A stretch of DNA of 64,000 nucleotides from Bacteroidota bacterium (GTDB lineage: Bacteria; Bacteroidota; Ignavibacteria; Kryptoniales; JAKASW01), in NCBI GenBank assembly GCA_021789975.1, contig JAJYIT010000008.1, positions 62,001-126,000 on the forward strand, written 5' to 3'. Below are positions 2,019 to 50,180 of this stretch, piece after piece. Within the stretch, counting starts at the first letter, position 1. The number at the start of each line of letters is the position of its first letter. The notes under the pieces are model-generated. The model had not been told where the DNA came from. It saw nothing but the letters and a program-made list of their open reading frames with translations, and made no database searches. The translations under genes and the position numbers were made by a program.

Positions 2019-5000
2019 AAGTCGCCTCCAAGCGAGAAATAGAACTGCGGACTGTGGAAGCCTTCGATGTTGTACTGCCATGCATAGTCAAACCTCAGAA
2101 CAAAATACAAGAATGGCACTCTTGCTCCAAAGCCTGAACCGACGAGAAGATCCTGCGTTACGAGGGCGCCTGACGGGTTTTTTGTGAAAGGTTTGTATGA
2201 AGAGAATGAATCGAACGCGCTTCCGGCGTCAACGAAAGCGACGCCTTCGATATTCGAAAGCAGGATAGGAAGCAAGCCGGGAACGAAATACTGCACGAGC
2301 GGGAATCTTATCTCTGCATTGACAAGGTAATAATTAGTGCCGAGCTGGGTGTCGTAGTTGAAACCGCGCAGCGGAAATACCGGAGTTAGGAACGCGTAAT
2401 CCGCAACGCTATTTATCGGGATCAGCTCAGTCGCGTAGGACCGGTTAATCCAATTGCTGACGCCTCCCATGAAAAACTTCTGCGGATTCGCACCGATACT
2501 GGATGCACCGCTGGCACGGAAAGCAAATACATTCTCGTCCAGGAAAGGAAGATATGTCCTGTAGTCAAACTGTCCGGTAAGGAAGCCCACAAAGCTAGGG
2601 GCAAATTTCGGAACGTAACTCAAAGTCAATTGATACCTTGTGCCGTTGATCGGTGCAAAGAAACCTGCAAGTGTGTTATCCTTTACGTAGTCGAGTGAAG
2701 TCATAATTGCATTTGCTGAGGCAGAAGGGATCGCCGGGTTATCTATATTCTGCTCTGTTATCCCAATGTATGCGACGTTGAAATCTAACCGTCGGAATCT
2801 GTCGAACGGTCTGGAAAATGACAACTGACCGATATACGATTCAAAACGATTCAGCTCGTAATTCCCGGATGCATTGTCATAAAGGTATATAAAATTTGCC
2901 GTGTGTATGGCACCAAGTCCAAAGTTTATCCTGGAAGCATAATTCTGATATGAGATCGCGTAATCGCTATTTCTCAGGTCGATTACAAAATCCGTATAAA
3001 GATCAATCTCGTTATTACCCAGCTGGTCACTGAAAGCCAGCTCGGTTGCGCCCTGGAAACCGTACAAAGTACTGAAGCCCGCTCCACCGGTTATGACATC
3101 CGGTTTGAAATCAATTTTGTAGGGAAATGTGATGAAATTGCCCGACGAATCGACATCGGCCTTTGCGAGAAATGGAGACACCTTCGGCTTCGTTGCAAGG
3201 CTCAACTGGTAGTCCTCATTGAAAACGTAGTGTGCAAGATCCATGTTGCCTGAGATGCCGTAAAGCGAGGCAATCGACTGATCGATCGAATTATTGGTAG
3301 TATCCGCCGCGGTGGCGAATTCAGGCTTGTGCTCTCGACCTAGAAAACGCTTTACATAGTTGGTCGGTTTGAGAGGCCCGTTGATCTTGTTCGCGAGCGG
3401 CAGTTCCATTGTGAACACATCGTAACCGCCATAGTTCAATGCCGAGAACGCGAGCCGCTGTCCATCCCTTGACATGGAAGGTTCGATAATGCCGTATAAC
3501 GAGTTCGTCAACGGCCATTCTTTTCCTGTCGCAAGATCATGGTAATAGAGGTTGTCAATGCCGTTTCGGCTCGACTCAAATATAATGCCCTTTCCGTCAG
3601 GCGTCGGCAGCGGATATTGATTACTGCCACCGTGGGGAACGGTCCAAGGTTCATTAGGAAAATTCGAATAAGTGATCCGTTTAATCTTTCCCGTCTCAAC
3701 ATCCATTTCATAAATATCCCACGGATTCCCTGCCGCCCAATGAGCAAGAGTCAATGGATTTCCCTTTTGGTAGAGACTGTCTCCTCTGTCTGAAGCGAAG
3801 AATATGCTTTTCCCGTCTACGGACCAGTGCGGGTCCTCATCTGAGAATACATCGTTCGTTAAATTACGAGCCGTATGCGTTTCCATATTGTATATGTAAA
3901 TGTCGGATTGGAGAGGATTGTACGCAGAGATGGCGAGATATTTTCCGTTTGGTGAAAAATCGATCCCGTCTATCCCGTCGAACTCCAGATTGGGCAAAGC
4001 TGTCGTTACACCGGTATTTGCATTGATCATGAAAATCTTGTCGTACTCCCCCGTCTTAGATGCGACGGCGACGTATTTTCCGTTAGGCGTCCAGGCAATA
4101 CCGGGTGTCAGGAACTCAAGCTCTTCAAAATTCGCACTGCGGCTCCCTTCGACGAGAGTCCTGATCTTCTTGCCTGTTACCGTGGATACAAGGACTACAT
4201 CAAAGTACCCAGACTTATCGGTTATAAGCGCTATCTTGCTTCCGTCTGGTGAGATCACCGGGCCGGTGTTATAGAAGCTGCCGTCCTTCCGGTGGTCAGT
4301 TACTCGCTGAGCAAACTTGTTCAGTGAAACCCGTTCGGCCACTTCCGGGAAATACTGGTCGCGGTTAAATTTCTGCCATGCGTCCGATAATTTGTCGACG
4401 TTCATTCCGATAGATCGTTCGAAACCCTGATTCACACTGTGTGTTGCCAACACCGCATGCACGACCTCACCGATCATTTGAGAACCATAAGTGTGGTCAA
4501 TGTAATGCCAAACCGATTCGCCACCCCGATAATCCAGGAAACCACTCAAGTATTGAATCGGCGGCATATATCCGTTTATCGTTGCATCGATCAGGAATTG
4601 GTCTGAATTGGTCTCCCAATGATCGAGCGATTGGAACTCTGCCATCCCTTCATTGAACCAGGTAGGGAGTGCAAAGGTTATGTTGTTCTCAATAGCGGAT
4701 TGAATTGACCCACCATAGAACATCTCGTTGAACACCGCATGAACAAGCTCATGGTGGACAACATGCCGCATGAGCCCGAGGTTTCCTTCCCATGGATACA
4801 CAACTCTATTTTTGTCAAGGGTTGTCACTCCGCCAGTGCCATATTGAAGGTATTCTGGAATAATATTGTTCTGTTGGAAATCGTTATGAGAATTAAAAAC
4901 TGTAAGCTGAATCCGTTTGAATATGTGGTAGTGAAAACTTGCTTCTATTGAAGCAAGAGAGCTTTCTGCCTCGACAGCAACGAATTGAGCAAGGTCATAG

Positions 5001-5149
5001 CCACCTTTGGTATAGTATACGTTGAAGTGAGGAGATTTGATATAATGCCACTTGAAATCCAGATAGTGAACCTTGTTCTTGCCGAATTCCTGGGCAGAAA
5101 TAGCAGACACAATTGCAAGGGATGCGAACAGAAAGATAAAGGTTCTCAT
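2015..5149 (-). CDS. Secreted metallopeptidase-like / PD40 propeller / outer-membrane barrel fusion
   Basis: A 1044-residue envelope protein with three parts. Residues 1-19 form a signal peptide ending in Ala-Gln. Residues about 25-270 resemble the peptidase MA-like gluzincin family: HELVH zinc motif at 133-137 and a downstream WFNEGMAEF segment supplying a candidate third ligand. Residues about 285-600 hold repeated TolB/PD40 propeller units (for example VISPDGSKIALITD, DFSPNGKYLAIS). From about 690 to the final Phe there is a beta-barrel like the bacterial surface-antigen (Omp85) C-terminal domain. The ATG at 5149 is preceded by TAAGGT. Overlaps the downstream barrel gene by 4 bp under the CTG start proposed there. 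Function unknown; the architecture suggests a surface-exposed or periplasmic protease tied to the outer membrane. Confidence 0.88.
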   Translation of the reverse strand: MRTFIFLFASLAIVSAISAQEFGKNKVHYLDFKWHYIKSPHFNVYYTKGGYDLAQFVAVEAESSLASIEASFHYHIFKRIQLTVFNSHNDFQQNNIIPEYLQYGTGGVTTLDKNRVVYPWEGNLGLMRHVVHHELVHAVFNEMFYGGSIQSAIENNITFALPTWFNEGMAEFQSLDHWETNSDQFLIDATINGYMPPIQYLSGFLDYRGGESVWHYIDHTYGSQMIGEVVHAVLATHSVNQGFERSIGMNVDKLSDAWQKFNRDQYFPEVAERVSLNKFAQRVTDHRKDGSFYNTGPVISPDGSKIALITDKSGYFDVVLVSTVTGKKIRTLVEGSRSANFEELEFLTPGIAWTPNGKYVAVASKTGEYDKIFMINANTGVTTALPNLEFDGIDGIDFSPNGKYLAISAYNPLQSDIYIYNMETHTARNLTNDVFSDEDPHWSVDGKSIFFASDRGDSLYQKGNPLTLAHWAAGNPWDIYEMDVETGKIKRITYSNFPNEPWTVPHGGSNQYPLPTPDGKGIIFESSRNGIDNLYYHDLATGKEWPLTNSLYGIIEPSMSRDGQRLAFSALNYGGYDVFTMELPLANKINGPLKPTNYVKRFLGREHKPEFATAADTTNNSIDQSIASLYGISGNMDLAHYVFNEDYQLSLATKPKVSPFLAKADVDSSGNFITFPYKIDFKPDVITGGAGFSTLYGFQGATELAFSDQLGNNEIDLYTDFVIDLRNSDYAISYQNYASRINFGLGAIHTANFIYLYDNASGNYELNRFESYIGQLSFSRPFDRFRRLDFNVAYIGITEQNIDNPAIPSASANAIMTSLDYVKDNTLAGFFAPINGTRYQLTLSYVPKFAPSFVGFLTGQFDYRTYLPFLDENVFAFRASGASSIGANPQKFFMGGVSNWINRSYATELIPINSVADYAFLTPVFPLRGFNYDTQLGTNYYLVNAEIRFPLVQYFVPGLLPILLSNIEGVAFVDAGSAFDSFSSYKPFTKNPSGALVTQDLLVGSGFGARVPFLYFVLRFDYAWQYNIEGFHSPQFYFSLGGDF

Positions 5150-5455
5150 TATGTACCTTAGATTGTTTTCAGGTCCTATCTCAAAGAAAATTGCATTTCA
5201 TTGCGCAACCAATGCAAGTGGACGGATCTGTAGATTAGAACCACATGCGGGAAAATCGGAGACTTTGTCACGGTAGAGCACTCAGACCGAATTTTGCTCT
5301 TCATTTTCGCTCTACTCCCCACGCCTTTTTATCTTATTACCATAATCGAAGTAAATAACATAATCGTTGACATAACAGTTTCAATGATTCTTTCCGAAAT
5401 TAGACGCTTTTGTCAGGCAAAGGTAAAAAGCCCCGAAATGAATTGGCGCAAATAT
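5150..5455. other. 306-bp intergenic region, leader of the 2015-5149 gene
   Basis: Separates two - strand genes. No convincing ORF or RNA is visible. On the - strand just past the CNNM gene (about 5425-5449) an imperfect GCGCC/GGGGC hairpin followed by TTTTT could act as a weak terminator. The AT-rich part near 5330-5370 would suit a promoter for the large envelope gene, but I could not assign boxes with confidence. Confidence 0.35.
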
Positions 5456-6664
5456 TCATCTCAATGAAAATTCCACGACCTCGACTTTTTTCCCATCGGC
5501 TTTCTGGACGCGCAATTCAAAGCGCCCGACCTGTAGAGTCTCACCGACCACAGGAATCCTCCCTACTTTGTAAGTCATCAGGCCACCGATGCTGGTGTAC
5601 TCGCTACTCTTGGGAAGCTTCACCTTCAAAGTCCTCTCTATTTCGTCAATTTCGGTTATACCCTGCATCAAATAATGCTTCGGCCTGATCTGCGTGATCC
5701 TTTCTTCAGCAAACCTGGTGGCAACCTCCCCTAGAAACAATTCCATAACATCGGTCGAAGTAACGAGACCCGATGTGCCCCCAAATTCGTCAATCAGCAC
5801 GGCAACATAAAGCCCAACGGCTCTAAATTCCTCCAGGAGATCTACCACCTGCATCGCTTCAGGAACAAAGAGGACATCACTCAAGACATCCTTTACGGTA
5901 TCAGCCTCCTTGAAAACATCCTTGGCATGAACAACACCTACAATGTTGTCCAGAGAAGTTGAGTAGACTATCACCTTCGTCTTTTTCGACTTTTCAAAAA
6001 TTGACCTCAACTTATCGATGCTCGTGTCCATACTCGCGGCGACGATTGATGTCCTGGGAACTGCTATCGTCCGTACCGGGTCCCTGCCGTTTGCCAGGAG
6101 TCTTCTTATCACCTCTGATTCGATTTTGTCGAGATACCCACCTGTCACCGTTTCACCAAGAAGCCGATAAACGTCCCTCTTCTGGAAAATCATCGACCTT
6201 GAACCCGTGTGGAAAATTCTATTCGCAGCCCAGGTGGAGAACCGGGCGGTGGCTCCGATTAGCGGCTTCGCAATTCGATGAAAAGCCTGGACGAAAGGAA
6301 GAGTGAATCTTGCCGTTGTCTCCGGTGTTTCAAGAGCGACACTTTTCGGAATTAACTCACCAACGACAAATCCGATAATAGTTGTCAATGGAACGACTAC
6401 CAATAGACTTACTCCAAACCTCTCATGGAAAACTATCTCAGCGAGGAGAGAAAACACAGTAATAAACAGATTGCTGGCGAGTACGACCGTGGCGAAGAAC
6501 AGATCATTGTTCCGAAGGAAATAGAGGAACGCGTCAAGCCGGTAACCGCTGCCACTCCTCACTACCATTGAGACCTTGTCTGATGATACAAACGAAGTCT
6601 CAGCAGCGGAGAAACATGCTATCATTACAAGAGAGAATATAACTAAGGAAGACTCCCAGACCAT
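5456..6664 (-). CDS. CNNM/CorC-HlyC family membrane protein (DUF21, CBS pair, transporter-associated domain)
   Basis: Member of the hemolysin C/CorC/CNNM family, proposed to act in magnesium or cobalt efflux or homeostasis at the inner membrane. The N-terminal DUF21 region (residues about 1-165) has several hydrophobic segments, the AAETSF motif near residue 20 and the VGELIPKS motif typical of the domain. A CBS-domain pair follows (about 190-310, with TSLDNIVGVVHAKDVF), then the small C-terminal CorC_HlyC domain (about 320-402). Length of 402 is normal for the family. It stands 58 bases downstream of the vanZ-like gene and probably belongs to the nnr-vanZ transcription unit. Substrate cannot be told from sequence. 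Confidence 0.9.
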   Translation of the reverse strand: MVWESSLVIFSLVMIACFSAAETSFVSSDKVSMVVRSGSGYRLDAFLYFLRNNDLFFATVVLASNLFITVFSLLAEIVFHERFGVSLLVVVPLTTIIGFVVGELIPKSVALETPETTARFTLPFVQAFHRIAKPLIGATARFSTWAANRIFHTGSRSMIFQKRDVYRLLGETVTGGYLDKIESEVIRRLLANGRDPVRTIAVPRTSIVAASMDTSIDKLRSIFEKSKKTKVIVYSTSLDNIVGVVHAKDVFKEADTVKDVLSDVLFVPEAMQVVDLLEEFRAVGLYVAVLIDEFGGTSGLVTSTDVMELFLGEVATRFAEERITQIRPKHYLMQGITEIDEIERTLKVKLPKSSEYTSIGGLMTYKVGRIPVVGETLQVGRFELRVQKADGKKVEVVEFSLR

Positions 6665-6722
6665 CTCTACGGCTCAAGGTTCTGTGGTTGAACCAGTTTG
6701 GACATGCATCTACCCGACCTGT

Positions 6723-39756: not shown

Positions 39757-40515
39757 CTATGGGGATTGTTGGGTGAAAAATGTATCATTACTCGAAACTT
39801 CGGAGCCTTTAGACGTGCCCTGTATTCCCGACGGTCCATTACCTGACATCCTGTCAGCCAGACTGGATTCGAAAAGTTTCAAGACACCGAGAGCAAAAGG
39901 ATCTTCGAACCGCATCCGCTCCGGGTGCCACTGAACTGCGATCAACCCGGGGGACATGGACGATGTACTCTCTATTGACTCGACAGTGCCGTCACCTGCA
40001 CGCGATGTAACCATTAATCCCTCACCGATTCTATCTGCGGCCTGGTGGTGCGAGCTGCTGACAACTCCGTGCCTGTTCCTTGTATATCCGAACAACTTCG
40101 ACTCCTCGGACAACTCAACGTTGTGGTACCTGTCTTCGGCATCGGAGATGGAACGGTGAAACCTCTTTTGATACTTCTCCAGGTCCATGATCAAAGTGCC
40201 GCCGAAATACACATTGACTACCTGCAAGCCGCGACAAATTCCGAGGATCGGGCTCCCGCGATTAGAGGCGATCTCGATAAGCCTGTACTCGACCCCGTCA
40301 CGCTCCGGATTTGTGTGGACCGTCTCATCGGGCCAATCACCGTAGAGTTCCGGTGAAACATCCTCTCCGCCAGTAAGAACAAGGCCATCACATATTTCTG
40401 TCTCACTCAGATTATCTTTCGATAAAACCGTGATACTCGCGTCAGGTATCCGTGAAATATATCTGATATAATTGACGTTCTTCTCGCCGCAGTCGGACAT
40501 CCCAATCTTAAGCAT
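39757..40515 (-). CDS. Class I glutamine amidotransferase-like hydrolase (gamma-glutamyl-GABA hydrolase family)
   Basis: Peptidase C26-type hydrolase related to PuuD. The nucleophile Cys94 lies in LGICRGLQVVNVYFGGTL, the His and Glu of the triad in VQWHPERMRF near residue 205, and the opening LVLTGGEDVSPELYG is typical. Residues after about 225 form a low-complexity Ser/Gly tail. It overlaps lpxK by 8 bases and is last in the lipid A-type cluster, so it may not act on polyamine intermediates despite the family name; substrate unknown. Confidence 0.88.
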   Translation of the reverse strand: MLKIGMSDCGEKNVNYIRYISRIPDASITVLSKDNLSETEICDGLVLTGGEDVSPELYGDWPDETVHTNPERDGVEYRLIEIASNRGSPILGICRGLQVVNVYFGGTLIMDLEKYQKRFHRSISDAEDRYHNVELSEESKLFGYTRNRHGVVSSSHHQAADRIGEGLMVTSRAGDGTVESIESTSSMSPGLIAVQWHPERMRFEDPFALGVLKLFESSLADRMSGNGPSGIQGTSKGSEVSSNDTFFTQQSP

Positions 40516-41560
40516 AAGCCCTCTCGAAGAGGTTGAGAAGAGCCGCGTTTATATGTTCCTCTCCAAAATTAACCGTAGCTCTCTCGCGCAGACCATAAAT
40601 TCGTTTAACGTCATCTCTTTCCACAAGCTCCTCGTCGCCAAAGATTCTTATTGCGTCTTTCATTGTTGTGACCGCCAGTGTCTCTTCATCACCCTGGAAA
40701 ATCTCATCGAGGTCATACTCATCAAACCAATGATGATCGCCGAATACTTTACGTCTCGATATTGAATATCCCAACTCCTCCAACGCGACAAAGAACCCGT
40801 CAGACCTGGCAATGCCACAAAACGCGGCGACATTGCTTCCTTGCAGGAGCATGAGGTCGCAATCTTCTCCAAGACTATTGACCAAACTCGATGGAGTAAA
40901 ACTTATCCCCGCTACCGGGGCATTCGCGCAGCTATGGACTTCCGAAAGCACTGTGGCATCAACTGTAAATTGACTGTGGCCCGTCAGAACAATCACATCG
41001 GCCTGCCTGATTCGCCCTTTCCGATCTCGAACGTTGCCGGCAGGTAGATAACTGTCGTACAAATCGTCGAGCGCATGGTTCATGAGTACAAAATCAAGAT
41101 CCCGATTCAATTCCCTGTTTTGAAGCCCATCATCAAGGACGAAAACGTCGATATCAAATTTATCGAGGAGCACCAGACCTGATGCGTGACGGTTCTTGTG
41201 AACAGCCACCGGAACGTTCGGGTAACTTCTGGATATCAATGCCGGTTCGTCTCCGAGCAGCTGCACATCGACTTCTTCGCCTGCATTCGGACAGGAGACG
41301 CGTCGTTCACCAGTAAGTCGCTTATAGCCCAGAGACAATACTGCCGGTTTCTTTCCCATCGAAAGAAGTCGCTCGATTAAATACAGCACGAATGGTGTTT
41401 TCCCGGAGCCACCTACGGATATATTACCTACGGATACCACGGGTACAGGCAGTTTCTTTGTGCTGAAAATGTTGTTGTCATACCCGAAGTTTCGGATAGT
41501 CACGATTCCACCATAAAGCGCGCTGAACGGCAACAGCCATTTTCTGACAGAGTGTACCAT
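40508..41560 (-). CDS. lpxK: Tetraacyldisaccharide 4'-kinase
   Basis: Phosphorylates the lipid A disaccharide at the 4' position on the inner membrane. The P-loop appears in VSVGNISVGGSGKTPFVLYLIERL (only the core VGGSGKTPF needs quoting), followed by VLDDGLQNRELNRDLDFVL, the family's second hallmark. One N-terminal hydrophobic segment. 350 residues, normal. Four bases separate it from lpxB, making a lipid A mini-operon. Confidence 0.95.
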   Translation of the reverse strand: MVHSVRKWLLPFSALYGGIVTIRNFGYDNNIFSTKKLPVPVVSVGNISVGGSGKTPFVLYLIERLLSMGKKPAVLSLGYKRLTGERRVSCPNAGEEVDVQLLGDEPALISRSYPNVPVAVHKNRHASGLVLLDKFDIDVFVLDDGLQNRELNRDLDFVLMNHALDDLYDSYLPAGNVRDRKGRIRQADVIVLTGHSQFTVDATVLSEVHSCANAPVAGISFTPSSLVNSLGEDCDLMLLQGSNVAAFCGIARSDGFFVALEELGYSISRRKVFGDHHWFDEYDLDEIFQGDEETLAVTTMKDAIRIFGDEELVERDDVKRIYGLRERATVNFGEEHINAALLNLFERAYA

Positions 41561-41564
41561 GTCC

Positions 41565-42725
41565 TCATGCAGCCTTCAGGATTAGTTCTGCCGCCCTCGC
41601 CGAAGCGCCTGCTTCTCCGAGCGCTTTGCGAATACCCGCGTATTTCTGCTTGATCCGGTCCGAGACTTCAGAATTGGTGAGTATCGATTTTATGATGCTT
41701 GCAGCTCTGGTCGCTTCAAATCCGCCCTGCACCAATTCTTCAACTATCCTTTCCCCCGCCACAATGTTGACAAGCGAGATGGATTTAAGCCTGACAAGCG
41801 ACCTACCGAGAAAATATGTAACGGGACTCGTCTTGTATGCAACCAGCATCGGCAAATCATGCAAAGCTGCTTCAAGAGTGGCAGTTCCGCTTGTGATCAT
41901 CCCCGCATCTGCGGAATCCATCAACAGCCCGACATCATGGCACAATTGTGCGTTCACACCTGTCTCGTGCATAACGCTCGAATACTCTTCCACATCTATT
42001 GCGGGCGCACACCCGATGATAGGCTCGATTCGCATCCCCGCGCCCCGGAGTTCATCAACAACGGTACGAGCAGCGAGAAGCATCGTTGGAAGTATTCTCT
42101 TTATTTCCTGGTGCCGGCTCCCCGGCAGGAGCGCGAGAACTCTCTGCATTTCGGGATTGCCTGGATGATGTGAATTGAAGAACTGACGACGAAACTGCTG
42201 AATCTCGGCGCCGCTTGAGCATTTGATCTCATCAAGAAGAGGGTGCCCGACGAATTTTGCATTGACACCCGCCTTGTGATACATCTCTTCTTCAAACTTG
42301 AATATCGTCATCATCAGGTCAACGGTCCGCCTGATCGTCTTGATACGCCTTTTACCCCACGCCCAGACTTGAGGACTGATGTAATAGAATACCTTTACCC
42401 CTTCTCTTCTCGCAATCTTGGCAAATCGCAGATTGAAGCCGGGATAATCGACCAGCACAACTCCATCAGGCCTTTCCTGCCGCACTATCCGGATCATGTC
42501 CTTCCGAACGCGGGCAAAAAACGGGAGCTTTGAGATCACCTCAGAGAATCCCATGACCGACATTTCTTTCACATGGTGGATTATTTCGACTCCTGCCGCC
42601 TTCATCTCATCCCCGCCGATTCCCACCAGCCTAACGTCCGCGAACTCTCTCATGCAACCGACCAGCCGAGCAGCATGTTTATCACCCGACGTCTCCCCTG
42701 CGATTATCAGATAACTCTTCTTCAA
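41565..42725 (-). CDS. lpxB: Lipid-A-disaccharide synthase
   Basis: Joins UDP-2,3-diacylglucosamine and lipid X into the lipid A disaccharide. Recognised by the opening IIAGETSGDKHAARLV, VVLVDYPGFNLRFAK, FYYISPQVWAWGKRR, the LLPGSRHQEIKRILP nucleotide-binding segment and TSGTATLEAALHDLPMLV. 386 residues, standard. Overlaps the methyltransferase gene upstream by 4 bp. Confidence 0.97.
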   Translation of the reverse strand: MKKSYLIIAGETSGDKHAARLVGCMREFADVRLVGIGGDEMKAAGVEIIHHVKEMSVMGFSEVISKLPFFARVRKDMIRIVRQERPDGVVLVDYPGFNLRFAKIARREGVKVFYYISPQVWAWGKRRIKTIRRTVDLMMTIFKFEEEMYHKAGVNAKFVGHPLLDEIKCSSGAEIQQFRRQFFNSHHPGNPEMQRVLALLPGSRHQEIKRILPTMLLAARTVVDELRGAGMRIEPIIGCAPAIDVEEYSSVMHETGVNAQLCHDVGLLMDSADAGMITSGTATLEAALHDLPMLVAYKTSPVTYFLGRSLVRLKSISLVNIVAGERIVEELVQGGFEATRAASIIKSILTNSEVSDRIKQKYAGIRKALGEAGASARAAELILKAA

Positions 42726-43318
42726 ATAGGGCTCCAGTAGAAATGCATTACCAGAAGCAAGGCAGAGACCGAGACGAGCGCTATCAGTGAAGATCTTTCG
42801 GATCTTAGTGCGCGGCGGACGTTCGGACTGAAATCCTTTCGGCCGGAAAATTTTCGGATGGAAGGCACAAATCGGTGGACCTTCGAGGCATATTCCTTCC
42901 AGTCCGGAAATGTCCGGGCAAGATATTCCTCTTCAAGTGAAACTATGGTGGCGTATTGAAATACAAAATAAACTATTGCAAATAGGGGGAGATACGGCAT
43001 CAGGGCGTTAGACATTACCCCGACTCCGGTATACATCAGGATGTTTCCGACGTACAGCGGATTTCTCACGTGAGCATAAGGTCCTGCTGTGATGAGAAAT
43101 GTCCCGCCGACATTTCCGGTTGTGCGGGTTTCGCTCCCCGCGTATGAAACTCCCCAGAACCTTATGAGTTCGCCGGTGAACGCGACTGCAAATCCAAATA
43201 GGAGCGACGCTGTGCTGGGCGCGGCGAATACAACCATCACCAATAAAAAGGGGATAGGAGTGTAGCTCCTGTATTTGAACAGAGCCCGTCGCCACTTGTA
43301 GTTTGATTGTGCCTCCAT
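42722..43318 (-). CDS. Isoprenylcysteine carboxyl methyltransferase-like membrane protein
   Basis: Membrane methyltransferase-like protein of the ICMT/PEMT fold. Several N-terminal hydrophobic helices are followed by the family core TAGPYAHVRNPLYVGNILMY and the LEEEYLARTFPDWKEYASKV region, which form the SAM-binding site. In bacteria such proteins methylate lipids or unknown small molecules. Start by ATG 43318, or by the GTG at 43321 overlapping the HAD gene's stop. Between the HAD phosphatase and lpxB in an unbroken overlapping run; a lipid substrate is a fair guess only. Confidence 0.85.
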   Translation of the reverse strand: MEAQSNYKWRRALFKYRSYTPIPFLLVMVVFAAPSTASLLFGFAVAFTGELIRFWGVSYAGSETRTTGNVGGTFLITAGPYAHVRNPLYVGNILMYTGVGVMSNALMPYLPLFAIVYFVFQYATIVSLEEEYLARTFPDWKEYASKVHRFVPSIRKFSGRKDFSPNVRRALRSERSSLIALVSVSALLLVMHFYWSPI

Positions 43319-44031
43319 CACTCAGACAGGTATGCTTCTCTTCTTTTCAATTCTGCCCGGTGTCGTTTCCTAAGCTTTCCGCTCCCAAGTATTTTGCTGA
43401 ATTTGGCGCGCACTTCTTCGAACGTATTGAATGGGAAGTAGGTGATGTTACTTTCTTCACAGTATTTCAAAAGTTCATCTTTCGCGAAAACAATATCTGC
43501 ATATTGCACTGCGCACCGGTCCGAAAAGCCATTTCCCACGTACACTATGATATCATCTGCACCAGTTTGAGTCAGGATCTGGTAACCTTTACAGTTAGCG
43601 CACTTTGTGCACTCCGATTCGTAGGGAAACTCAATCGCTATTCCACCGTTCTTAAAATGCGAGCTGTTTGAATATACTGGTACACCGGCGATGCCGTTTG
43701 AAGAGAGAATTCTCTCAATGTAGAAGGCAAGACCATCACTTAAGATGGACATCTCGATACCTTCCTCGCGGCAGAAATCGAAGAAAATTCTAAATGTGGG
43801 ATCGATCTCGAAGCCGTCTACGAACTTCTCGGCGGCTGACTCGGTCACTTCTGCCGTCGATGCTTCTGTGAGCAGAAGGTCACGACCAGAAATCTCGCCG
43901 GACTTCCATTGGGCAACCGCCTTCATCGACTCCGCTTCGTTCCCAAATTTCCTGAAGAAGGCGTTCCCGACATCCTGTTTGGTTATAGTACCGTCAAAAT
44001 CGACGAATACTTTCGGTTTGTAGGACTTCAT
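43318..44031 (-). CDS. HAD-IB phosphatase, MtnX-like
   Basis: Haloacid dehalogenase-type phosphatase of the PSPase/MtnX group. The nucleophile motif is VDFDGTITKQD near residues 10-20; motif II is ILSDGLAFY; motif III/IV is VGNGFSDRCAVQYAD. A short Cys-rich stretch, ECTKCANCKGY near residue 140, occurs in the MtnX-like subgroup and may bind metal. The C-terminal 25 residues are strongly basic. No other methionine-salvage gene is nearby, so the substrate is open. Overlaps smc by 4 bp. Confidence 0.88.
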   Translation of the reverse strand: MKSYKPKVFVDFDGTITKQDVGNAFFRKFGNEAESMKAVAQWKSGEISGRDLLLTEASTAEVTESAAEKFVDGFEIDPTFRIFFDFCREEGIEMSILSDGLAFYIERILSSNGIAGVPVYSNSSHFKNGGIAIEFPYESECTKCANCKGYQILTQTGADDIIVYVGNGFSDRCAVQYADIVFAKDELLKYCEESNITYFPFNTFEEVRAKFSKILGSGKLRKRHRAELKRREAYLSE

Positions 44032-47000
44032 TTTGCCGAGACCCAGTCATCTACAAAACGAACCGCGACCACCTTGGAAACGCCCTGTTCTTCCATCGTA
44101 ACGCCGTAGAGCGTATCAGCGGCCTCCATTGTACGCTTGTTGTGTGTGATGACTATGAACTGCGTGTCGGTCGAAAACCTCCTGATCATCCGGACGTAAT
44201 TATCAGTGTTGTTGTCATCAAGAGGTCCGTCAACTTCGTCGAGAATACAGAACGGGCTTGGCTTAACCAGATAAATCGCGAATAGAAGTGCGATAGCAGT
44301 CAGAGTCTTTTCTCCCGCAGAAAGAAGGTCAATTGACTGCGGTCTCTTGCCTGCCGGCTTGCCCATGATTTCGATTTTCGCTTCGAGAGGATCGACGTTC
44401 GTTTCGAGCTTAAGATCTGCCTCGCCGCCGTCGAAGAGGCTCTTGAACGTAATCTTGAAATTCTCCGTTATGAGTTCAAATGTGTCGATGAATTTCTTGT
44501 GAGCGGTACGATTGATCTCTTCTATGGTCTTGGTAAGTGTTTTTTCCGCTTCGAGCAAGTCACCTCTCTGTGCAACCAGGAAGTCGTAGCGTTGTTTTTC
44601 TTCGGAGTATTCAGAAAAAGCCACGAGGTTAACGGGCCCGAACGATTCAATCCTGCCTCTGAGATAATTGACTCTCTCTCGTGCTGCGGGGATATCGAAG
44701 TCGCCCGGCAACTTCATAGACTCCTTCGTCTGGGCGGTTAGGTCCAGGTTGAACTCTTCACCGGCCCTTTCGGAAAGTGACCTCGCCTGCGCATCGAGTT
44801 CATTAATCTTCAAGCTGACCTGATGAACAGTCTCGACTGCACTCTCGTGACTTGCACGGATCTCGGCAAGTTTTTTCGACTCGGATGATTCCGATGTTTT
44901 TTTCGAAGCCAGTTTCTCATTCAGCTCGGCACCCTGGGCATCAAGCGCATCCATTTCTGTCTTACATTCGGCCCTCAGTTCTTCAAGTTGAGCCATCTTC
45001 ACCTGCGATAGAGAAATCGTCTCACTATTTGAGAGAATATCTTCCTCCGCTCGCTGTACACCGTCGCTGTTGGTGTTTATCTGCTCCTGTGAAGATTCGA
45101 TTTCCCTCTTCAGGAAATTAACTCTGTTCACGCACTCAATGTGTTTTGCCTGGGCTTCTCTAAGCTGATCATTTTTCTTTCTATACTCTTCTTCTATGAC
45201 TTTCAGCTCTGAGAGCGATGCCTGGTATTCCTGGTCCGACGAATCCTTTGCCGAATTGAGACCGGTCAGCAGTAGTTCGACGCTGTCCAGATCCGATTTT
45301 GCTTCGTCTATTTCTGCACCGAGCTTGGATATCCGTGCCATGACGTCCGCGAGCTGAAGTTCAACTCCCTGCAGAGCATGGTTATTCTCCACGCTCGACT
45401 GTTCCACCCTGGCAAGTTGCAGCTCCAGGTTTCTTAGTATTTCGTTGCCAATCTTGATGGGGAGCTTATCGATGTCCGCCTGGAGTGTACTGATTTGGAC
45501 TTCCAGTCTTGAGATCTCTTCAGTCAATCTGGATTGCTCGACTTTCAGCTCTTCCAACTGTCTGAGCTTGCCGACTCGGCCGCCCTCGGTGCGCCGCGTG
45601 CTTCCTCCTCGTATGATGCCTTTTGACGAAAAGACATCGCCGGAAAAGTTCACGCAGAAACTCGCAGGGTTCTCCCTCATTACAGTCTGAGCCTCTGAGA
45701 AATTTTCAATGACTGCCACGTTTCCAAAGAAATATCTTGCCAGCGGCTCATGTTCCGGCAGCATCTGCACATGCTCGATCAACTTGTTTACTAAGCCTGA
45801 CACGACCGGGGAGTCTATTTTGTGGAGCCGATCCAGGCATACAAACGTCACCTTTCCCAAATCGCGGCTGCGCAGGGCGTCAACAGCATTCAGCGCCGCA
45901 TATTCGTCTGGCGAAACAAGAAAGTTCGAAGCCTCACCCAGAATCGACTCGGCAGCGATCCGGTAGTCGGGCTCGACATAGAAGACGTCGCTCAGCACTT
46001 CGAATTTAGGAAGTTCGGCAATCTCGCCTCGTGCAAGAGCTTTTGCCCCGTCTGGTAAACCTTCAAGGTTTTCGACGAGTCCGTCAAGAAAATCCACCCG
46101 CGCCTGGTTTGTCTGAATAGCATCACGGACTTTCTGTGCGGAGGTCTTTGTCCGCTCAAGTTCGCTGAAGAGCTCTTCACGATTCCGCTCCAGATCACTC
46201 AATTTCTTCTTCTCAGATTCAATCTGAGATTCGAATTGTACCTTCTCTGATCCGGATATTTCTATCCGCTGCGTAATCTTCCCCTTTTCGTCCTCAAGCT
46301 GAGCCTTGCGGATACCAAGCTCGTCGGCGTGGGAGCGGACCCTTTCGAGTCGCGCGTGGGCTCTTTCTCTCTCATTTTGTTTAAGTGCGAGGTCATTAAG
46401 AACCCGGATCAAGTTTTCGTGCGCTGTGTTTGACTTGGCGCGGGCAAGGGCCAGCTGCTGTTCCAGGTTCCTAAAATCTACCTGCTCATTCTCCAATGAA
46501 ATTGCTAGAGATTTTTCCTCTTCCTCCGAGTCCGAGATGCTGAGCTTCAATTCCGCGATTTGCGAAACAAGGGCTTGGTTCTTCGAGGTGAGGTCCGCCT
46601 TCCTTTTCTCAAGGACAGAATTGTTGTCTCTCAATCCCCTCATTCTCTCCGCGAGAACTGCAATCTCCTCTTCCTTGACGTGTAACTCAGATTGTTTTTC
46701 ACTTCGCTGCAGCTGAAGATTCGAAAGGCTTCTGTCCACCTCATCGATCTCCAGGCGAAGGAGCTTGATCAATTCATCTTGTTGTGAAAGCACCCCCAGC
46801 GTCCGAACTTTTTCGTCCTCGCTGGTTGAAAGACTTTCTTTGAGCGGGACAAGCCTGACGAGTATCTGGTTATATTCGGCGTAGAGATATTGCCGCTCGA
46901 GGAGGCTTAGTTCGTCGGTAAACCGTTTGTACTGTTCTGCGCGCTTCGCCTGACGCTCGAGAGAGTTGACCTTCTTTTCGATCTCTGTGATCAAATCGTT

Positions 47001-47573
47001 CACGCGGAGGAGGTCCCGTTGCACGTCGTCAAGCTTTCCAAGGGCGGCTTTACGCCTGGCCTTATATTTCGTCACGCCGGAGGCTTCTTCGAACATCTTC
47101 CTGCGCTCATCCGCATTTTCCCGCAGGATGTCCTCCACCATCTTCAGCTCAATAACCGAGTATGCCGTAGCTGCCATGCCCGAATCCATCAGCATGTCCT
47201 GGATGTCCTTGAGCCTGCATTGGTTCTTATTTATAAAGTATTCACCCTCGCCCGACCTGAACACCCTCCTGGTTATCGCCACCTCGGAGTAATCAACAGG
47301 CAACAGACCCTTGTCGTTCTTGATCGTGATCGTGACCTCCGCCATCCCCATTGGCTTCCGTGCCTGCGAGCCGTTAAATATCACGTTCTCCATCGAATCA
47401 CTTCGGAGCATACTGGTTCTCTGTTCGCCCAGAACCCAGCGAATGGAATCGAGGACATTTGTCTTTCCACATCCGTTTGGACCCACTACGGAAGTAATAC
47501 CACCATCGAAAGTGAGCTCCGTCTTGGCGGCAAAGGATTTGAAACCGAAAATCTCAAGTTTAGATAGAAACAT
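44028..47573 (-). CDS. smc: Chromosome segregation ATPase SMC
   Basis: Condensin subunit that compacts and segregates chromosomes. The N-terminal ATPase lobe has the P-loop GPNGCGKTNVLDSIRWVLGEQ (core GPNGCGKT at about 32-39); two long coiled coils flank a hinge at about residues 500-670; the C-terminal lobe has the signature LLSAGEKTLTAIALLFAIY and Walker B ILDEVDGPLDDNN. 1181 residues, full length. ATG immediately follows the stop of the GH2-like gene. ScpA and ScpB are not in the window. Confidence 0.98.
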   Translation of the reverse strand: MFLSKLEIFGFKSFAAKTELTFDGGITSVVGPNGCGKTNVLDSIRWVLGEQRTSMLRSDSMENVIFNGSQARKPMGMAEVTITIKNDKGLLPVDYSEVAITRRVFRSGEGEYFINKNQCRLKDIQDMLMDSGMAATAYSVIELKMVEDILRENADERRKMFEEASGVTKYKARRKAALGKLDDVQRDLLRVNDLITEIEKKVNSLERQAKRAEQYKRFTDELSLLERQYLYAEYNQILVRLVPLKESLSTSEDEKVRTLGVLSQQDELIKLLRLEIDEVDRSLSNLQLQRSEKQSELHVKEEEIAVLAERMRGLRDNNSVLEKRKADLTSKNQALVSQIAELKLSISDSEEEEKSLAISLENEQVDFRNLEQQLALARAKSNTAHENLIRVLNDLALKQNERERAHARLERVRSHADELGIRKAQLEDEKGKITQRIEISGSEKVQFESQIESEKKKLSDLERNREELFSELERTKTSAQKVRDAIQTNQARVDFLDGLVENLEGLPDGAKALARGEIAELPKFEVLSDVFYVEPDYRIAAESILGEASNFLVSPDEYAALNAVDALRSRDLGKVTFVCLDRLHKIDSPVVSGLVNKLIEHVQMLPEHEPLARYFFGNVAVIENFSEAQTVMRENPASFCVNFSGDVFSSKGIIRGGSTRRTEGGRVGKLRQLEELKVEQSRLTEEISRLEVQISTLQADIDKLPIKIGNEILRNLELQLARVEQSSVENNHALQGVELQLADVMARISKLGAEIDEAKSDLDSVELLLTGLNSAKDSSDQEYQASLSELKVIEEEYRKKNDQLREAQAKHIECVNRVNFLKREIESSQEQINTNSDGVQRAEEDILSNSETISLSQVKMAQLEELRAECKTEMDALDAQGAELNEKLASKKTSESSESKKLAEIRASHESAVETVHQVSLKINELDAQARSLSERAGEEFNLDLTAQTKESMKLPGDFDIPAARERVNYLRGRIESFGPVNLVAFSEYSEEKQRYDFLVAQRGDLLEAEKTLTKTIEEINRTAHKKFIDTFELITENFKITFKSLFDGGEADLKLETNVDPLEAKIEIMGKPAGKRPQSIDLLSAGEKTLTAIALLFAIYLVKPSPFCILDEVDGPLDDNNTDNYVRMIRRFSTDTQFIVITHNKRTMEAADTLYGVTMEEQGVSKVVAVRFVDDWVSAK

Positions 47574-50180
47574 CTATGCGACTCGACTGCCTACGATAAA
47601 TTTGTAAAACATTTTGGTGTACGGAATAAGCCCGTCCATCCCGTTGTAGTAGAGGGTGAGCAATACTAAAAGAGCCACCAATACCAGCGTACCGATCACA
47701 CCGATGCGCAGAGTTGAAATATCATATATAATTCCTATACCATGGAACAGCCTGAACAGGCTTAGCAAACACAGCGCCGCGAACACCAGGAGGGCCGCCC
47801 AAACAAATCCGTTCTGACCGAGAAGTCGGAAGAGAATCATATCTGCCAAAATCAGGATCGCCATCGGCAGCAGGGACCATATCGCGATTGTAAACGCACT
47901 TACTAATTCCAGTCTGATCTTCACAGCAAAGGAGAGGAGTTTGATGATGATGGTAACCACGGCAGCGACGACCATAAATAGCACAGTGAAACCTGCTATG
48001 AACGCCGCTGGATGCCAGACGAGATAATCGAATTTTATCTTTAGAGCGTGGTAAGGAATGAAAATACCGAGGAGCCTGTCGAACGTGTAGCTGTTCCTGA
48101 ACGCATAGGTGAGGCTGGATAGATAGATGGCCATCCCTGCGGATATTAGAAGCAAGACCATTCCCGTCTGGAAAGCCGAGATCATACGCTGATCCCGCAC
48201 GTCAGCAAAAAAATTATAGGGGCGGAAAATTGCACGCGTGGCGCTTTCGCGGAACCACCTGCGGCTATAGTGCAGGTACGTTATCAACACCAAGAGGAGC
48301 GTGGAGAGTATAACGTATATGATGGGAGGTGTATCTGTGTAGTTTCCTATCGGAAGAGTCGGAAGCGCCTCTTCGTTGAAGAGCCCCCTTACAACTGAGA
48401 ATGCAGGGCGCTTCTCACGCCAGTAACTCACAATGCCGTAGGTGTACAGGTATGGATGACCGTTGGGCATCAGGTGTGGTACTGCGCCGCGCCAATCGGC
48501 GAAGCTGTTTATCGAAATGCCGGCAAAGTTTCCTTTCTCAACCGCACTGTAAGCGTCAACCAGGAAGCGCGCCTGGTGCTCAAGTGACAATGGATCGGAA
48601 TACCCGTTATGATTGCTTATTTGAGTCTGGCTGCCAACGGCTGAAATCCAGAAGGTGGTGTTAGGAGCAATCTCCGACTGCCTGGCGAGAAATAACTTCA
48701 TCTCTCTTTCCGACGTAAAGGGAGAAAGATCCAACCCGACGAAGTCGGCATCCGTGTGCACAGTATCCAGAAGTCCCGGCATAGGCGTGTAGTACACAAG
48801 CCAGTCGGTCCGGTTGTGTACCAGATCGGCGGCAGAGGACAAGTATTCTTTGGTCGCAGTGGAAGACTCCTCCAGATCAGTGCCCACAGAAATTGCTACT
48901 ACAGCAGGATGAGATCGGGAATCACGAATCACTTCACTCAGGTACCCTTTAATTGATCCCCGATATTGGCCTGAGCTGAGCACGGATGGTGGAACATCGA
49001 TTATCGGGATTTCCTCGAAAACCATCAAACCGAACCTGTCACAAAGATTCAGCAGAGTCTGCGACGGCGGATAATCAACAACTCTCACCGCATTCGCCCC
49101 AAGAGTCTTAATCACCGCGATGTCTTTCTCGAGCTCAAGCTCATTCAACGCTGCTCCGACGTCGGGATAATCGGCGATGTAATTCACACTCTTTATGAAA
49201 GTCTGAGTACCGTTCAAGAAGAATTTCCCCCCCGACAGCGATGCCTTTCTGAACCCGATGTTTACCGTTTCTTGATCCACAACATTTCTTTTGTATGCCA
49301 CAAAGAAATCCAACTGATACATACTTGGCTGGGCCGGAGACCACAAAACTGGCCTGTCGACTCCCAATGTGAAGTGAACTTCTCCGTTATGATTGGGATC
49401 TAGAGTAAACGATTGGTCGCCCGATTTCGCAACGACTTTTCCGGAAGCTTTATCGAGAAGTGTCGCATACGCGGTCAGAGACATCGGTGCGGAAGTTGAA
49501 TCGATCCCGAATCGTGAAACGTCCGTGGCATAAACATGAATATCACTTTCCAGCGTGGCACTGGTCATCTCTTGGTCGAACGATATTGTCTCAGATGGAT
49601 CAGCGATGTAAATCGGCGGCTCGACTGTTATGTAAATATTACGGAAAAGTCCTTCATAGCAAGCTGGTTGGTATGCCAGTTGCTTCAAAGGAATTGTCGA
49701 GACCGGGTTAGGCCTGCTGTTGCAGATTATTTCAATGACATTCTCGGAGCCAGTCTGAAGGAGCCGATCAGGAATTCTAGTCTCTACAGGAGAGTAAGCA
49801 CCGTTGTGAATCGCAACGAATTCGTTGTTGATCCTAACTTCGGTTGATATTCCGCCGTTGCCTACATGCAAGCTGAAGACGTTGTGGTTTATGAAGCCCG
49901 CGGGTATAAAGAGATGCCTTTTGAATATAACGCTTCCCTTCCCGTCGAAACTGGAAGGGATCTGCACTGTTTGCCACGTTTTTCCGTTATTTTCTGAAGC
50001 AAGCCAGGTCCCGTTGAGGCTGATTCTAAACCTGCCCGCATTCACTTGTTCGCATCTAAATCCTTCTTGGTTCAATTGAGCTACAGCGGTCGAGTCCTGC
50101 CCGAACACCCTACCTGCTGAAAGGATAGAAAGCAGTACCAACGATGGAATCGCGAACTTTGGAGGCCTATTGAAGAGCAT
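47574..50180 (-). CDS. GH2-like membrane protein that has lost the catalytic glutamates
   Basis: Residues 1-27 form a signal peptide; about 50-600 resemble glycoside hydrolase family 2: sugar-binding jelly roll, immunoglobulin-like domain and TIM barrel (GANAVRVVDYPPSQTLLN, FGLMVFEEIPII, FAGISINSFADWRG). Positions that hold the acid/base Glu (usual GNE) read GTD at 433-435, the usual SEYG nucleophile segment reads SAVG at 513-516, and the usual HYP reads DYP at 369-371. Six membrane helices follow (about 618-637, 667-690, 722-748, 760-786, 791-814, 826-845), a region recalling Yip1-like domains. Probably not an active glycosidase; perhaps a sugar-sensing or binding envelope protein. Abuts smc with no gap. 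Confidence 0.85.
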   Translation of the reverse strand: MLFNRPPKFAIPSLVLLSILSAGRVFGQDSTAVAQLNQEGFRCEQVNAGRFRISLNGTWLASENNGKTWQTVQIPSSFDGKGSVIFKRHLFIPAGFINHNVFSLHVGNGGISTEVRINNEFVAIHNGAYSPVETRIPDRLLQTGSENVIEIICNSRPNPVSTIPLKQLAYQPACYEGLFRNIYITVEPPIYIADPSETISFDQEMTSATLESDIHVYATDVSRFGIDSTSAPMSLTAYATLLDKASGKVVAKSGDQSFTLDPNHNGEVHFTLGVDRPVLWSPAQPSMYQLDFFVAYKRNVVDQETVNIGFRKASLSGGKFFLNGTQTFIKSVNYIADYPDVGAALNELELEKDIAVIKTLGANAVRVVDYPPSQTLLNLCDRFGLMVFEEIPIIDVPPSVLSSGQYRGSIKGYLSEVIRDSRSHPAVVAISVGTDLEESSTATKEYLSSAADLVHNRTDWLVYYTPMPGLLDTVHTDADFVGLDLSPFTSEREMKLFLARQSEIAPNTTFWISAVGSQTQISNHNGYSDPLSLEHQARFLVDAYSAVEKGNFAGISINSFADWRGAVPHLMPNGHPYLYTYGIVSYWREKRPAFSVVRGLFNEEALPTLPIGNYTDTPPIIYVILSTLLLVLITYLHYSRRWFRESATRAIFRPYNFFADVRDQRMISAFQTGMVLLLISAGMAIYLSSLTYAFRNSYTFDRLLGIFIPYHALKIKFDYLVWHPAAFIAGFTVLFMVVAAVVTIIIKLLSFAVKIRLELVSAFTIAIWSLLPMAILILADMILFRLLGQNGFVWAALLVFAALCLLSLFRLFHGIGIIYDISTLRIGVIGTLVLVALLVLLTLYYNGMDGLIPYTKMFYKFIVGSRVA

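Follow-up and report, generated by a model that had tools for sequence, protein, structure and literature searches.

A catalytically altered GH2 fold fused to a six-helix membrane domain in an apparently undescribed, single-copy protein family usually encoded beside smc

Why would a bacterium maintain a glycosidase-like protein whose catalytic residues are replaced, joined to a membrane domain and encoded directly in front of smc? This question is raised by an open reading frame in a 64,000-nt stretch of DNA (hereafter, the window) from a Bacteroidota bacterium of the lineage Ignavibacteria (contig JAJYIT010000008.1). An earlier note, made from the letters of the DNA, had read its product as a GH2-like pseudoenzyme of the inner membrane with a sugar-binding or sensing role. 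The protein is made up as follows:

47574..50180, minus strand: GH2/Yip1-like fusion protein, 868 aa (open reading frame, Pfam, homologous loci, AlphaFold2 model)
50100..50180, minus strand: putative signal peptide, residues 1-27 (N-terminal hydrophobic segment 8-27, hydropathy)
48363..50060, minus strand: GH2 fold, residues ~41-606, with jelly-roll, Ig-like domain and TIM barrel (Foldseek)
47634..48335, minus strand: six-helix transmembrane domain, residues ~616-849, weakly Yip1-like (Pfam, AlphaFold2 domain model)
48177..48254, minus strand: near-invariant loop FRESATRAIFRPYNFFADVRDQRMIS, residues 643-668, probably cytoplasmic (family alignments, census)

The reading frame at 47574-50180 (minus strand) is complete, running from an ATG start through 868 amino acids to a stop. 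Pfam searches of the protein returned GH2_C (E = 2.3e-14) and GH2 (E = 6.6e-9) above their cut-offs and GH2_N (E = 6.6e-4) below its own. With 53 family members as input, AlphaFold2 gave a model (mean pLDDT 81.9, pTM 0.77) that Foldseek matched to GH2 beta-galactosidase and beta-glucuronidase structures with E-values down to 2e-41 and target TM scores of 0.74-0.83, and the match to the enzymes 3fn9, 8dhe, 6xxw and 6ncw extends over ~600 residues, a length that makes the GH2 fold complete rather than a fragment. The three domains, including the (beta/alpha)8 barrel expected of GH2 members, are present (Foldseek, Pfam) and follow the same order as in these structures and in LacZ and GUS. Hydropathy and the AlphaFold2 models place six transmembrane helices in the C-terminal part. 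The GH2 landmarks and the fused membrane helices described in the earlier note are thus both borne out, and the GH2 part is probably extracytoplasmic, in a fusion protein that would be held in the inner membrane.

Three positions, all located by alignment, describe the state of the catalytic site:

48876..48878, minus strand: D435 at the expected GH2 acid/base Glu, with T434 replacing the preceding Asn
48639..48641, minus strand: A514 at the expected GH2 nucleophile Glu (SAVG for SEYG/TEYG)
49074..49076, minus strand: D369 at the expected catalytic-site His of the HYP motif

The motifs DYP (369-371), GTD (433-435) and SAVG (513-516) therefore read exactly as had been claimed. T434-D435 falls on the catalytic Asn-Glu of the GH2 beta-glucuronidase 6xxw and A514 on the nucleophile Glu of intact homologues; this register is secure, since the members of the family that keep both Glu residues align to the GH2 enzymes 6ncw and 6ncy across the catalytic segments. 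The acid/base NE of GH2 members is accordingly absent (T434-D435 here; SN, TN or DG in sister species), as is the nucleophile (S/T)E(Y/F)G (S513-A514-V515-G516 here; Ser at 514 in sister species), and the active-site RHE loop is replaced by Y334-I335-A336. The claim that all catalytic positions are replaced holds for both Glu residues and the catalytic His and goes too far for the pocket, where Y464 and W563 are retained; E389 is kept as well. All 13 rows examined from the window's genus show replacement: the acid/base is most commonly Asn, the nucleophile Ser. With both Glu residues and the His replaced throughout this genus, the GH2 part cannot, judging from its residues, act as an ordinary retaining glycosidase. 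The window protein thus shares its fold with GH2 enzymes and differs from them in lacking the catalytic Glu and His, in carrying six transmembrane helices and in being conserved beside smc.

Conservation across the family is strongest in a loop that follows the first transmembrane helix, with the consensus FRExxxRAxxRPYNFFADVRDxR; in a census of 141 aligned rows, R649 and D660 are each conserved in 140, R662 in 138 and D663 in 136. The centre of this loop was already without variation in the first family alignments. By the positive-inside rule, Arg-rich loops tend to be cytoplasmic, and this loop, being rich in Arg, is therefore probably cytoplasmic too, an orientation in agreement with a signal peptide and a GH2 part in the periplasm. 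On sequence conservation, the membrane domain with its near-invariant loop is the conserved core of the family. The domain is modelled by AlphaFold2 with a pLDDT of 85.8 and covers nearly the whole Pfam Yip1 profile (PF04893), at E = 0.0022 and 18.3 bits against a gathering cut-off of 28.6; E-values of 0.01 or lower were obtained for 18 of the 53 relatives (best 4.6e-6), and a few orthologues (G038, G007 and G072) exceed the curated cut-off. Profile-profile comparison with the relatives' stand-alone Yip1 proteins was not significant (hhalign probability ~1%, E 0.04-0.19). A fold search of the membrane domain gave no PDB match at E<=0.001, a result that depends on the library containing a Yip1 structure, and a search of viral models gave none either. 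Yip1 membership is thus weak: the window protein spans the profile, but it scores below the cut-off, has its own loop motif and carries a large N-terminal fusion.

How widespread is this architecture? One scan of a genome collection recovered it in 58 first-round homologous loci from Ignavibacteria, Kryptonia and related Bacteroidota MAGs; such recurrence is not chance and confirms in relatives the fusion that the window displays. A profile of the membrane domain matches 280 of the 294 genomes of the class and 146 of its 152 genera, nearly always in single copy. It also matches 14 genomes from four families (f32, f35, f50 and f62) that belong to other classes of the phylum, and the representatives read from these families encode the full-length protein. 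Ten of the 14 class genomes without a match were followed up (G080, G094, G107 and G120 fell outside that set), and real loss was rejected for most of them: three have neither the protein nor smc, so that an assembly gap is likely (G140, G142, G288); the contig ends at smc in G216 and carries only part of smc in G219; and G115 and G251 encode divergent copies upstream of smc. Among these ten, only members of family f11 (G020, G067, G059) had smc but not the protein, and there another gene lies upstream. Within f11, genomes of genera g18 and g37 have smc and lack the protein, and genus g11 encodes, upstream of smc, a 294-aa protein with the membrane domain and the loop in which GH2 is absent; the membrane domain can therefore manage without GH2. 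This shorter version was read upstream of smc at 5821-6702 (plus strand) of locus L086 and at 4321-5202 (plus strand) of locus L186. In a single-contig genome of 2.2 Mb, the gene is broken into overlapping pieces (L093, 3330-6115, plus strand); in L113, from the same family (f16), it is intact and highly divergent. A limited open-access literature search found no description of a GH2/six-helix fusion family, which is apparently undescribed.

The catalytic site has fared differently in different branches of the family. In the 141-row census, which counts some species twice, neither Glu is present in 77 rows, the nucleophile alone in 44, the acid/base alone in 11 and both in six, with a gap in the remaining three. 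Both Glu residues and the catalytic His are kept in all six species sampled of Kryptonia, a hot-spring lineage, and in no other census row, and the pocket residues vary from clade to clade. On a 99-row tree, at least four state changes are needed at the acid/base and at least 11 at the nucleophile; the tree is a quick one with long branches, and such parsimony counts cannot separate gain from loss. The full site is common to GH2 enzymes and Kryptonia, and the simplest interpretation is therefore an active ancestor whose descendants lost catalytic residues repeatedly. In a tree of GH2 domains, all family rows, Kryptonia included, are separate from the only outgroup, seven further GH2 hits from the genome that contains the window, which suggests a single origin of the family's GH2 domains. 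The idea that Kryptonia acquired their intact site by a domain swap found no support, as the Kryptonia GH2 domains group inside the family. Kryptonia probably still have an active beta-glycosidase attached to this membrane anchor. Homologues with a conserved active site, which the earlier note would have counted against its reading, are thus found in six Kryptonia species, and the window protein is still dead. The idea of a pseudoenzyme at the inner membrane accordingly stands for the window protein, where the catalytic residues are lost, and as part of a class-wide family, but not for the family throughout.

Selection on the GH2 part was compared between the two states. In the window's genus, where the site is dead, the least saturated pairs give the GH2 part a dN/dS of ~0.035-0.06, a sign of purifying selection, and the Kryptonia value is ~0.06; these values are approximate, with dS near saturation in most pairs. 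In the dead genus, dN is higher in the GH2 part than in the membrane part (0.021 against 0.017, 0.063 against 0.046 and 0.069 against 0.030), and in Kryptonia it is lower (0.058 against 0.062, 0.089 against 0.094 and 0.101 against 0.124). Conservation was also compared at the positions lining the cleft, that is, the barrel mouth as defined from the strand ends of the model. The cleft is frozen in Kryptonia (0.105 vs 0.369 bits; a fraction of 0.0005 of random draws gave a value this low). In the dead genus the effect is weak (0.515 vs 0.711 bits; fraction 0.04), and family-wide the cleft shows no excess of conservation over the remaining barrel (2.35 vs 2.38 bits). Together, these data make Kryptonia look like the owners of working enzymes and the dead genus like one that keeps a constrained fold, and a cleft so unremarkable across the family speaks against a family-wide ligand pocket.

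The surroundings of the gene were read in the window and in the homologous loci. Downstream in the window lie:

44028..47573, minus strand: smc, directly downstream at 0 nt (NCBIfam TIGR02168 above cut-off; junction sequence)
43318..44031, minus strand: MtnX-like HAD phosphatase, conserved neighbour (TIGR01489 above cut-off; synteny)
42722..43321, minus strand: PEMT/ICMT methyltransferase, conserved neighbour (Pfam PF04191/PF04140; synteny)
41565..42725, minus strand: lpxB (TIGR00215 above cut-off; synteny)
40508..41560, minus strand: lpxK (TIGR00682 above cut-off; synteny)

The TAG stop of the fusion gene immediately precedes the smc ATG, and this junction, together with the NCBIfam identification of SMC, LpxB and LpxK, upholds the proposed transcription unit with smc and lipid A genes. 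Same-strand smc follows in 56/56 loci whose contig continues, and the stop lies -1 to 25 nt from the smc start in 105 of 116 distinct junctions across all loci. Beyond smc, where the contig reaches, mostly the HAD phosphatase, the methyltransferase, lpxB and lpxK are found, with an occasional inserted gene; the gene upstream of the fusion is variable (tpiA in 35 loci, a patatin gene in the window). Since the pair formed by the fusion gene and smc also occurs in other classes, the pairing is old. The link with smc, whose persistence the earlier note had proposed to check together with that of lpxB, is real and breaks down in one clade (families f5, f8, f15, f16, f19, f24, f25 and f28; tree support 99), which has lost the smc adjacency and kept the protein and its loop, so that adjacency is a strong habit and no requirement. 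In f15 and part of f16 the fusion gene precedes hrcA instead.

Several side observations concern these neighbourhoods. The methyltransferase at 42722-43321 (minus strand) is distantly like LmtA, the Leptospira lipid A Kdo2 1-phosphate O-methyltransferase (TIGR04571, E = 1.2e-15, below cut-off), and may perhaps act in lipid A or lipid-linked methylation. In part of the clade without smc adjacency (L090, L091, L093 and L113) the fusion gene stands before hrcA and beside a divergent gene of ~1,000 aa, and in L090 and L091 grpE- and dnaJ-like genes come after. The ~1,000-aa product resembled SprA, an identity that we do not claim, as a 400-aa piece of it had no Pfam match. In many Ignavibacteria, though not in the window, a gene of ~640 aa lies between smc and the HAD gene (L020, L027, L030-L037 and others); it fell in a mixed cluster (c6), other rows of which have C-terminal tails resembling T9SS sorting signals.

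What, then, might the protein do? We lean, at somewhat better than even, towards an envelope membrane protein of Yip1-like type in which the GH2 fold has turned into a module that docks a periplasmic partner. The window protein would be the local member of a single-copy envelope family that combines a GH2 fold with a six-helix inner-membrane domain. The membrane domain would use the loop FRExxxRAxxRPYNFFADVRD to carry out a conserved task at the cytoplasmic face, and the GH2 fold would dock a periplasmic protein or a lineage-specific glycan in a Klotho-like manner, the dead GH2 part being kept as a folded module in the window's genus. Klotho and beta-Klotho are membrane-tethered GH1 pseudo-glycosidases that offer a co-receptor docking surface, and beta-Klotho has Asn and Ala in place of its Glu residues (PMC10628560). 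The likeness, a membrane-tethered TIM-barrel glycosidase with catalytic Glu replaced, is an analogy and no claim of homology; Klotho belongs to another family (GH1), is single-pass and is an animal protein. Purifying selection points to a docking role for the GH2 fold, and a purely structural role fits it as well.

A glycan receptor, whose dead barrel would hold a glycan of the envelope or from outside and pass a signal on via the membrane domain, seems unlikely to us, though it deserves a hearing. The GH2 fold is retained, Y464 and W563 are kept, the cleft of the dead genus is a little better conserved than other barrel positions, and soluble Klotho has been called lectin-like (PMC10628560). 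The sugar-binding or sensing role proposed in the earlier note nevertheless finds poor support: cleft conservation is absent family-wide, pocket residues differ between clades, f11 dispenses with GH2 altogether, and Pfam found no known signalling domain in the window protein.

It is more doubtful still that the GH2 part is a decaying remnant, on its way out of a protein in which only the membrane domain matters. The repeated replacement of catalytic residues, the loss of GH2 in f11, the broken gene of L093 and the faster evolution of the dead genus's GH2 part all speak for decay. However, dN/dS is about 0.05 on the dead GH2 part, and nearly all sampled genomes carry an open, full-length and well-folded GH2 long after the losses, which neutral decay would not preserve.

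We regard as quite improbable a partner of SMC through which chromosome organisation or segregation would be linked to the envelope. The tight junctions, the presence of the gene pair in other classes and a loop that is probably cytoplasmic would suit such a role, but the unlinked clade keeps protein and loop with smc elsewhere, smc occurs in the absence of the protein in the g18 and g37 genomes of f11, and lipid A genes and the phosphatase are conserved nearby too. An enzyme with an altered or inverting mechanism, using other carboxylates such as D435 or E388/E389, is scarcely credible: the acid/base Glu has become Asp in the window protein and E389 is kept, but in sister species position 435 is Asn or Gly and position 514 is Ser, and the motif columns show no conserved replacement carboxylate family-wide.

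Near-universal and single-copy in its class, and apparently undescribed, the protein is a candidate core envelope gene. A bolder version, which we hold only tentatively and think improbable, would make it a class-wide, possibly essential envelope factor of Ignavibacteria-type Bacteroidota. An ancestral membrane-anchored glycosidase would have been converted several times independently to a receptor that no longer catalyses a reaction and that links the periplasm with a cytoplasmic partner expressed together with smc; Kryptonia would have retained the enzymatic form of the ancestor. Prokaryotic members of Yip1 (PF04893) had no reported function in a 2019 review (PMC6682643), and the family offers a handle on what such Yip1-like membrane domains do. 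With an intact site in one lineage, differing losses of it in most and no GH2 domain at all in one family, it is also a natural experiment in how a glycosidase becomes a pseudoenzyme and how its fold is later used.
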